64,000 nt of DNA from positions 1-64,000 of the forward strand of contig NZ_JAFIWC010000024.1 of NCBI RefSeq assembly GCF_017163755.1, read 5' to 3'. Below, one piece after another: positions 16,169-17,830 of the stretch. How positions within the stretch are numbered: position 1 is the stretch's first letter; every line of letters starts with the position of its first letter. Under the pieces are notes generated by a model. It ran no database searches, was not told where the DNA came from, and saw only the letters and a program-made list of their open reading frames with translations. Origin of the DNA: Xanthomonas sp. GTDB taxonomy: Bacteria > Pseudomonadota > Gammaproteobacteria > Xanthomonadales > Xanthomonadaceae. The position numbers and the translations under genes were made by a program.

Positions 16169-16651
16169 ATGGCCGCACTGCACATCCGCCCGGCCACCGC
16201 CGACGATGCCGGGCTGATCCTGCGCCTGATCCGCGACCTGGCGCGCTACGAGCGCGCCGAGGACGCCGTGCAGACCGACGAGGACGGCCTGCGCGCCAGC
16301 CTGTTCGGCCCCGGCGCCACCGCGCATGCGCTGATCTGCGAAGCCGGCGCGCAACCGATCGGCTACGCGGTGTACTTCTACAACTACTCGACCTGGCTGG
16401 GCCGCAACGGCCTGTACCTGGAGGACCTGTACGTGGCGCCGGAACACCGTGGCGCCGGCGCGGGCAAGGCGCTGCTGCGGCACCTGGCCAGGCAGGCGGT
16501 GGCCGAGGGCTGCGGCCGCTTCGAGTGGTCGGTGCTGGACTGGAACCGGCCGGCGATCGCGTTCTACGAATCCGTCGGCGCCCGCGCGCAGGACGAATGG
16601 ACCGTGTACCGGCTGCAGGGCGAGGCGCTGGCGGCCTTCGCCGCCGGCTGA
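16169..16651 (+). CDS. GNAT family N-acetyltransferase
   Basis: A 160-residue acyl-CoA-dependent acetyltransferase. The acetyl-CoA-binding motif A reads YLEDLYVAPEHRGAGAGKAL (R-x-x-G-x-G type), followed by the ECRFEWSVLDWN-like segment (here GCGRFEWSVLDWN) and a final FYESVGA loop. These features match the diamine/thialysine acetyltransferase branch, which modifies small amines such as polyamines or thialysine. It is directly linked to rpe. The substrate is not certain. Confidence 0.88.
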   Translation: MAALHIRPATADDAGLILRLIRDLARYERAEDAVQTDEDGLRASLFGPGATAHALICEAGAQPIGYAVYFYNYSTWLGRNGLYLEDLYVAPEHRGAGAGKALLRHLARQAVAEGCGRFEWSVLDWNRPAIAFYESVGARAQDEWTVYRLQGEALAAFAAG

Positions 16652-16667
16652 AACGCCCGCGGCGGGG

Positions 16668-16766
16668 ACAAAAAAAGAACCGCACTGTCGCCAGTGCGGC
16701 CCCTGGGAGAAGTCGGAGGCTGATCCTGCCTCCATCCGTCGTCCTTGCTATGGCCTTCCATTCTCC
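16668..16766 (-). ncRNA. candidate structured small RNA with six GGA motifs
   Basis: On the minus strand the gap between the GNAT and the lipid-kinase genes ends in a strong intrinsic terminator, yet no minus-strand gene precedes it. Upstream of the terminator lie six GGA triplets in about 55 bases. One is displayed in the loop of a perfect hairpin (GGAGGC-AGGATCA-GCCTCC, 16715-16733), and a closing helix GGAGAA/TTCTCC (16761-16766 with 16706-16711) encloses it. GGA in hairpin loops is the binding signature of CsrA/RsmA, so a CsrA-sequestering RNA is a reasonable guess. The 5' end is unknown and could lie as far as about 16850. Confidence 0.5.
16670..16699 (-). terminator. rho-independent terminator (minus strand)
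   Basis: Read on the minus strand: CCGCACTG, loop GCGA, CAGTGCGG, then TTCTTTTTTT. An 8-bp GC-rich stem with a GNRA tetraloop and a U-tract is a textbook intrinsic terminator. On the plus strand the A-tract precedes the stem, so it cannot serve the GNAT gene. Confidence 0.85.
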
Positions 16767-16891
16767 GTACCGACGATGACCGGCCGGTGACAGCGGCCGG
16801 GGTTCCGCGCGCCGCCGGCGGGCGCGGATTCACGGCGCGCAACGCACCGATTGCTAGCCTGCGCGCTCCACCCTCGACCCGTGATGCACGT

Positions 16892-17830
16892 ATGCCGCAG
16901 CCCCGATGGCGTCTGATCCTCAACGGCAAGTCGGCAGGCGACGACGCGTTGCGCGAGGCGGTCGTGGCGCTGCGCGAACGCGGCACCACCGTGGAGGTGC
17001 GGGTGACCTGGGAGGAGGGCGACGCCGAGCGCTACGTGACCGAAGCCCTGGACGACGGCGTGGACTGCATCGTCGCCGCCGGCGGCGACGGCACCTTGAG
17101 CGAAGTCGCCAGCGCGCTGGCGCACCGCGCCGAAGGCGCCGCCGGACTGCCCGCGCTGGGCCTGGTGCCGCTGGGCACGGCCAACGATTTCGCCAGCGCC
17201 GCCGGCATTCCCGACGAGCCGTTGCCGGCGCTGGAGCTGATCGCGCAGGCCCGCGCGTTCCCGATCGACCTGCTGCGCATCGAGGCCGAGCACGGCGCGC
17301 ACTGGTGCGCGAACGTCGCCAGCGGCGGCTTCGGCACCCAGGTGACGGTGGAAACCGACGACGGGCTGAAGAAGATGCTCGGCGGGCTGGCCTACCTGAT
17401 CACCGGCATGGCGCGGCTGGGACGGATCGACCCGATCCAGGCCCGCTTCGAAGGCCCGGACTTCGCCTGGCAAGGCGAGTTCATCGCGCTGGGCCTGGGC
17501 AACGGCCGCCAGGCCGGCGGCGGCCAGGCGCTGTGCCCGGACGCGGTGATCGACGACGGCCTGCTCGACCTGACCATCGTGCCCGAGCTGAGCGGCGAGG
17601 TGGCCGCCACGCTGGGCACGCTGGTGACCTCGGGCAAGCAGGCGGCGCTGGAGCGGGTGGCGATCCGCGCGCGCCTGCCGTGGCTGCGGATCCAGGCCGA
17701 CGAGCCGCTGACCCTGAACCTGGACGGCGAGCCGGAAACCTCGCGCCACTTCCGCATCGACTGCGTGCCCGGGCGCCTGCGCATGCACCTGCCGGCCGAT
17801 TCGGCGCTGCTGCGCGGCCAGACGCGGTAA
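16892..17830 (+). CDS. YegS-like lipid kinase (diacylglycerol kinase catalytic domain)
   Basis: A 312-residue member of the DAGK_cat/YegS family, which phosphorylates lipids with ATP. The nucleotide-binding [13 protein letters not shown] motif is at about residues 66-78, followed by [12 protein letters not shown], the second conserved signature. The C-terminal beta-sandwich contains [11 protein letters not shown] and the LNLDGEPE motif typical of the family. The ATG at 16892 gives the standard N-terminus ([14 protein letters not shown]). Likely cytosolic or membrane-peripheral. Confidence 0.92.

Follow-up and report, generated by a model that had tools for sequence, protein, structure and literature searches.

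Known Csr/Rsm RNAs and the present locus

In Xanthomonas, genes for virulence, biofilm and secretion are under the influence of RsmA. As of 2012, the RNAs assumed to act on RsmA, and the way these are themselves regulated, counted as unknown (PMC3528676, excerpt). Homologues of CsrB and CsrC are given as absent from Xanthomonas in the available part of PMC7286519, those of CsrB/RsmB/X/Y/Z are stated to be absent in the available part of PMC7694677, and xanthomonads are said to be without rsmB (PMC3937308, excerpt). Among titles and abstract beginnings of the open literature, no PhoB-controlled CsrA sRNA was found for these bacteria.

CsrB/CsrC and RsmX/Y/Z are noncoding RNAs that end in a terminator, carry GGA motifs in a 5' stretch as well as in the loop of a hairpin, and occur where CsrA is present. 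These features are common to the RNA gene described here, which lies in a window of 64,000 nucleotides of Xanthomonas sp. DNA. The window RNA differs from them in its lack of an Rfam match, in having two invariant GGAs and not many, and in a core promoter that has a Pho box. McaS and GadY, base-pairing sRNAs of E. coli that bind CsrA, are small and contain at least two GGAs, like the window RNA (PMC7652899, excerpt). Their sequences were compared with it through Rfam only. The promoter type of McaS and GadY differs from that of the window RNA.

Within the genus, the RsmA-binding sRNA RsmU of Xanthomonas campestris carries four GGAs in its long form and is cut from the comEA 3' UTR; changing the four GGAs altered its binding without abolishing it, and overexpression phenotypes remained (PMC7694677, excerpt). 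In contrast, the window RNA would be transcribed from a promoter of its own, situated between rpe and trpE, and its flanks are rpe/GNAT and YegS/trpE instead of comEA.

The locus was best read as the gene of a phosphate-starvation RNA that would titrate RsmA/CsrA, with a rough probability of 0.5. The further reading, that the Xanthomonadaceae have here their missing conserved antagonist RNA of Csr/Rsm type, a minimal RsmA sponge for one dimer with PhoB acting at the core promoter, was judged somewhat short of an even chance. If the sponge reading is true, phosphate starvation would directly free the RsmA regulon, instead of or besides a GacA-type signal. The locus is a conserved candidate RsmA-modulating RNA that has a separate promoter and, by prediction, a phosphate trigger, so the questions of identity and of regulation are both directly testable with one RNA.

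A terminator-bounded noncoding RNA gene

The sRNA gene lies on the minus strand at approximately 16793-16668, between the GNAT gene (16169-16651) and the YegS-like gene. The transcription unit runs leftward in window coordinates up to an intrinsic terminator (16668..16704, minus strand) comprising a 13-pair stem (16704-16675) followed by a T (U) run to 16668. This terminator was the starting point of the sequence-only reading and proved to be strong. Terminator-like hairpins were present in 62/75 relatives and in 1/75 control windows. The sequence-only reading had extended the locus to 16850; the upstream limit was moved to approximately 16793 because conservation fades upstream of the Pho box.

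A small protein-coding ORF was considered and rejected. The minus-strand frame (ORF 16564..16989) continues through the terminator, as had been noticed from the sequence alone, and orthologues do not keep it. The stretch from CARGGA to the end of the hairpin measured 27-33 nt, with a remainder of 0, 2 or 1 modulo 3 in 43, 31 and 1 of the 75 sequences respectively. The small-ORF reading was set aside because the frame crosses the terminator and the length of the conserved stretch shifts by single bases. By its sequence, the locus therefore has the form of a stand-alone noncoding unit with an intrinsic terminator. A phage origin was also rejected: the phage collection gave no match, and the element is a syntenic, single strong copy.

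At gathering thresholds the sRNA matched no Rfam family. The best weak match was NsiR4 (E 0.28, under its gathering score). An sX-type identity, which the sequence-only reading had suggested, was not borne out as far as the published Xanthomonas sX RNAs are in Rfam, which holds at least sX9.

In each of the 75 aligned loci, rpe, YegS or trpE, or more than one of them, is a neighbour. The flanking genes that were found all run antisense to the RNA; in 71/75 loci they cover both sides. These flanks bear on the proposal that the RNA is already published under another name, for instance as sRNA-Xoo3 of X. oryzae or as one of the 612 Xcc sRNA candidates that exist according to PMC7694677 (excerpt). 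sRNA-Xoo3 is of similar size (93 nt, approximately 80 nt by Northern), Hfq-dependent, encoded in a 353-bp intergenic region and conserved in Xanthomonas (PMC3039613, excerpt). Its flanking genes, however, reportedly lie in different orientations, and a CsrA or PhoB link is not mentioned in the available part of that paper. The published RsmA-binding RNA, RsmU, has the separate origin given above. Earlier publication was considered unlikely on balance, if a real possibility, and would be compatible with the other readings.

As a sequence feature, a conserved sRNA gene at this position is near certain. Judged from the alignment, the locus is a conserved noncoding RNA gene and not a chance arrangement.

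Distribution in the family

By blastn, the element was present in 20/20 same-genus genomes, the own genome included, and 83/198 genomes across the family matched. The remaining 115/198 family genomes gave no blastn match, some of them in genera whose other members have the element. A covariance model (R1) was built from 35 sequences and run on 397 genomes of the order. It was positive in 103/397, all within the window's family and in 24/98 genera; 294/397 order genomes gave no match to the model, again including some in genera with positive members. Each positive genome carried one strong copy, and one (G450) carried an extra weak match.

The alignment (n=75) comprised 35 of 40 distinct segments, five similar ones being omitted, plus 40 of the 103 model matches, picked mainly for low scores. 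Homologues were collected by sequence and conservation is therefore partly ascertained. In eight blastn matches (L031, L032, L035-L039, L049), the aligned part does not begin before query position 31 and so leaves out the Pho box, which spans positions 9-26. Two GTCAY half-sites were present in 8/8 of these orthologues, though the match had excluded the box.

A predicted Pho box next to the -10 element

The sequence-only reading had not included a Pho box. One was found at 16776..16793 (minus strand), CTGTCAC-N4-CGGTCAT, a direct repeat of 11-bp period and a predicted PhoB dimer site according to the E. coli PhoB matrix. From the alignment of 75, a -10 element, GAGAAT (16760..16765, minus strand), was placed 10 nt past the box. 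Transcription would likely start in the CCAT just 5' of AGCAAGGA (16751..16753, minus strand), an estimate from the -10 distance and the conservation of CCAT. Relatives showed the layout TGTCAY-N5-NGTCAY with an 11-bp period, followed 10 nt on by a hexamer GAnnnT. In 75/75 the second-position A and the sixth-position T of this hexamer were invariant, at a constant distance from the box. The phoA promoter has the same 10-nt (10-bp) distance from Pho box to -10 element.

The PhoB matrix was made from 58 E. coli sites printed in PMC10294691, and the two half-sites only were scored. The window's box ranked first of 127,966 positions. In 74/75 cases the orthologous box ranked within the top 1e-4 of a null of 613,820 positions, the exception (L045) standing at 1.06e-4. 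Boxes shifted by 1, 2, 3 or 5 bases scored far lower. As a positive control, 30/30 upstream regions of same-genus pstS-type genes exceeded the 99.99% quantile of the null, compared with 0/30 equal stretches inside the genes; the weakest upstream site (L146) scored 8.7 against a quantile of 8.35. The exact pattern TGTCAYNNNNNNGTCAY occurred three times in the whole genome and the backward-read control zero times.

PhoB was above the cut-off in 80/80 carriers tested, of 103 known. PhoB-activated promoters hold the Pho box at a strict distance from the core promoter (PMC10294691, excerpt), and X. citri PstS and PhoX are induced by phosphate limitation (PMC5439949, excerpt). TGTCA repeats of 11-bp period are common to the window locus and to the PhoB-activated promoters of pstS and phoA (site list of PMC10294691, excerpt), whereas the predicted product at the window locus is an RNA. 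As read from the sequence, the layout is that of a PhoB-activated promoter. PhoB control of the sRNA is considered likely, with a modest remainder of doubt, and the Pho box thus gives the RNA a likely trigger.

A competing account of the promoter is that another OmpR-family regulator binds the direct repeat and that the trigger is a signal other than phosphate. PhoB relatives are many (71 PhoB-model matches in the own genome, one of them above the cut-off), which leaves room for such a regulator. Against it, no position in the window scores higher with the E. coli PhoB matrix than this box, and that matrix also picks out sites upstream of each of the 30 same-genus pstS-type genes examined. Another regulator was considered very unlikely; it would be compatible with the other readings of the RNA.

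Further sites were noted during the scans. The second exact Pho-box-like site in the genome (L056 1997-2013, G000:C9:82396-82412) lies 100-160 bp upstream of an ORF resembling a PQQ-dependent sugar dehydrogenase (by eye), possibly another member of the Pho regulon. The third exact TGTCAYNNNNNNGTCAY (L057 2027-2043, G000:C24:46026-46042) is on the minus strand, shortly after the 3' end of an ORF judged LysR-like by eye. The second-best PhoB-matrix score in the window (16.3, compared with 16.9) was at 465-482 on the plus strand; this site overlaps the 3' end of an ORF judged by eye to be MarR-like and is probably due to chance. Tandem pstS-like genes with differing Pho boxes were seen (L058/L163 and same-genus loci L138-L166); one type carries a pair of boxes, CGTCATNNNNNCGTCATG followed by CGTCATNNNNNGGTTATG, at a distance of 33 bp, and another type has CGTCATNNNNNTGTAACA.

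GGA motifs and RNA structure

With a start near 16753-16751, the predicted RNA is approximately 85 nt long; terminator-bounded RNAs (n=62) had a median length of 83 nt. The sequence-only reading had counted six GGAs in the transcript. Six are indeed present, within 43 bases (16766-16724), but those at 16766-16764 and 16759-16757 are promoter letters that lie in or just after the -10 element, and the predicted RNA therefore keeps four. Within 55 bases, six or more GGAs occurred at 29/127,890 window positions on both strands, and four or more within 47 nt at 480/127,906, the locus itself being counted in each.

Site A is CAAGGA at 16742..16747 (minus strand) near the 5' end, and its consensus CARGGA was present in 75/75. 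Site B (16735..16737, minus strand) was not conserved and is GGG in many relatives. Site C (16731..16733, minus strand) is part of the hairpin 5' arm and was not invariant. Site D (16726-16724) is the loop GGA of the hairpin GGAGGC-AGGATCA-GCCTCC (16715..16733, minus strand), for which covariation and the loop reading were used; the loop AGGATCA on a 6-bp stem agrees with the hairpin first drawn from the sequence. Conservation of the GGAs across relatives accordingly divides, site A and the loop being kept in all 75 and sites B and C varying. Counted as far as the end of the hairpin, each RNA had 2-4 GGAs, with a mean of 3.36 compared with 2.08 in shuffles.

The loop GGA was counted in 75/75 by reading; the alignment column gives 74, since AGGGAC in L107 is shifted by a gap. 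The hairpin script found the loop in 73/75 (it missed L104 and L136) and in nine favoured another stem with an 8-nt GGA-bearing loop. Site A and the loop GGA were 18 nt apart in 67/73 measured loci and 16-19 nt apart in the remainder. Loop variants keeping GGA comprised AGGATCA, GGGATT, TGGATT, AGGATC, AGGAC, AGGGAC, ATGGAA, ATGGAG, ACGGAG and others. Three divergent relatives have ANGGAN hexaloops (L098 ATGGAA, L102 ATGGAG, L101 ACGGAG).

In the stem, 99.3% of cells were paired and 3/6 pairs had changed on both sides (5 cells, compared with 0.3 in shuffles). Stems slid along the alignment were 38.5-66.5% paired; the control at -3 had higher covariation (0.065 vs 0.057) but was only 53.6% paired. 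The alignment was fitted to the covariance model and the pairing counts therefore lean towards structure.

A pyrimidine-rich linker, GACTTCTCCC (16705..16714, minus strand), separates the hairpin from the terminator and is often AATnTTCC in relatives. TCC occurred within 14 nt past the hairpin in 48/75, compared with 15.7 expected from shuffling. Folds were predicted for the 62 terminator-bounded RNAs with the start set 4 nt before CARGGA. The loop GGA was predicted to be open (probability at least 0.5) in 60/62 and site A in 16/62. In folds running past the terminator the corresponding counts for predicted unpaired GGAs were 61/75 and 13/75. In the window's own RNA, site A had a mean predicted unpaired probability of 0.08 and would be mostly paired. 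Site A is mostly paired in the predicted folds because pairing with the linker TCC is possible.

The TTCC/CTCC of the linker is conserved (window 16714-16705 and relatives). It could mask site A by pairing, or could be an Hfq or anti-Shine-Dalgarno element. An upstream ATGG...CCAT hairpin in the MFE fold was rejected; by eye it is absent in relatives, L043 and L108 among them, and its 5' half lies in the promoter.

Possible RsmA titration and base-pairing

In the titration reading, low phosphate would cause phosphorylated PhoB to bind the Pho box and recruit polymerase to the -10 element (16765-16760). The RNA would display two GGAs, usually 18 nt apart, in the 5' CARGGA and in the hairpin loop. 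One RsmA/CsrA dimer would bridge both, and RsmA would be pulled off its mRNAs during phosphate starvation.

The CsrA SELEX consensus is RUACARGGAUGU, and one CsrA dimer bridges sites 10-63 nt apart, with the optimum given as >18 nt (PMC7652899, excerpt). For RsmE, the bound motif is A(N)GGAX where it lies in a loop or a single strand; GGAs buried in helices are bound only weakly (PMC4005645, excerpt). Site A conforms to A(N)GGA in 75/75, and its variable letter is a purine throughout (A or G), in agreement with SELEX; conservation does not extend to the first A of the SELEX ACA. The loop conforms in 49/75, and 26/75 loops (GGGATT, TGGATT, TGGAT, GGGATCA) are without the pre-GGA A that RsmE contacts (both tallied by hand). 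Two GGAs kept amid changing loop and stem letters fit binding by CsrA/RsmA.

The own genome encodes one CsrA, whose first 54 residues are nearly identical to solved CsrA/RsmA chains, with R44 kept. CsrA was found in 192/198 family genomes and in 179/179 near-complete ones; the six without it were at most 86% complete. CsrA is thus nearly universal in the family and its presence does not discriminate between the readings.

The sequence-only reading had proposed an RNA that titrates CsrA/RsmA. A conserved noncoding RNA with two GGAs kept in 75/75 supports this in part; the prediction that site A is paired in most folds counts against titration. The invariant GGAs number only two, compared with eight in RsmZ (PMC4005645, excerpt), and a site A buried in a helix would, going by RsmE, be bound only weakly. 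Conservation also covers letters beyond the GGAs (CCAT and columns 62-63 of alignment A2), and this would be explained by a base-pairing seed. Taken from these sequence features, RsmA titration by the sRNA has about an even chance.

The pairing of site A, the 26 loops without A and the conserved outside letters make base-pairing a serious rival and a dual RNA possible. The RNA would then be a PhoB-activated sRNA of Hfq type, in which the 5' stretch GCARGGACGACGG and/or the loop base-pairs with phosphate-response mRNAs, the A/U-rich linker and terminator bind Hfq, and the GGAs belong to the seed. The promoter evidence is equally compatible with it, and conservation that extends past the GGAs, the linker AATnTTCC (TCC in 48/75) and the U-tailed terminator (terminator-like in 62/75) would suit it. 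In X. oryzae, loss of hfq affected three of eight verified sRNAs (PMC3039613, excerpt). The positions between the GGAs vary, however (columns 57, 61, 64, 67 and 68 of alignment A2), the loop is fixed at GGA only, and some stem pairs are maintained through compensatory changes. An Hfq-type sRNA, the main rival to titration, was considered rather unlikely.

A dual RNA like E. coli McaS would base-pair and also titrate CsrA through at least two GGA motifs. Two GGAs with conserved flanking letters are present here, and the CsrA-binding RNAs McaS and GadY contain two or more GGAs (PMC7652899, excerpt), but nothing separates this from either simple reading; it was taken to be quite unlikely. Titration of RsmA was kept as the preferred reading.

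Two observations on csrA were made in passing. The E. coli PhoB ChIP-seq table has a weak site at csrA, with no pronounced change of expression among the numbers given (PMC10294691, excerpt), a possible second link between PhoB and Csr in another bacterium. In genus g13, four genomes (G078, G130, G151, G200) had five to nine CsrA matches each and three others had one to three; most other genomes of the family had one.
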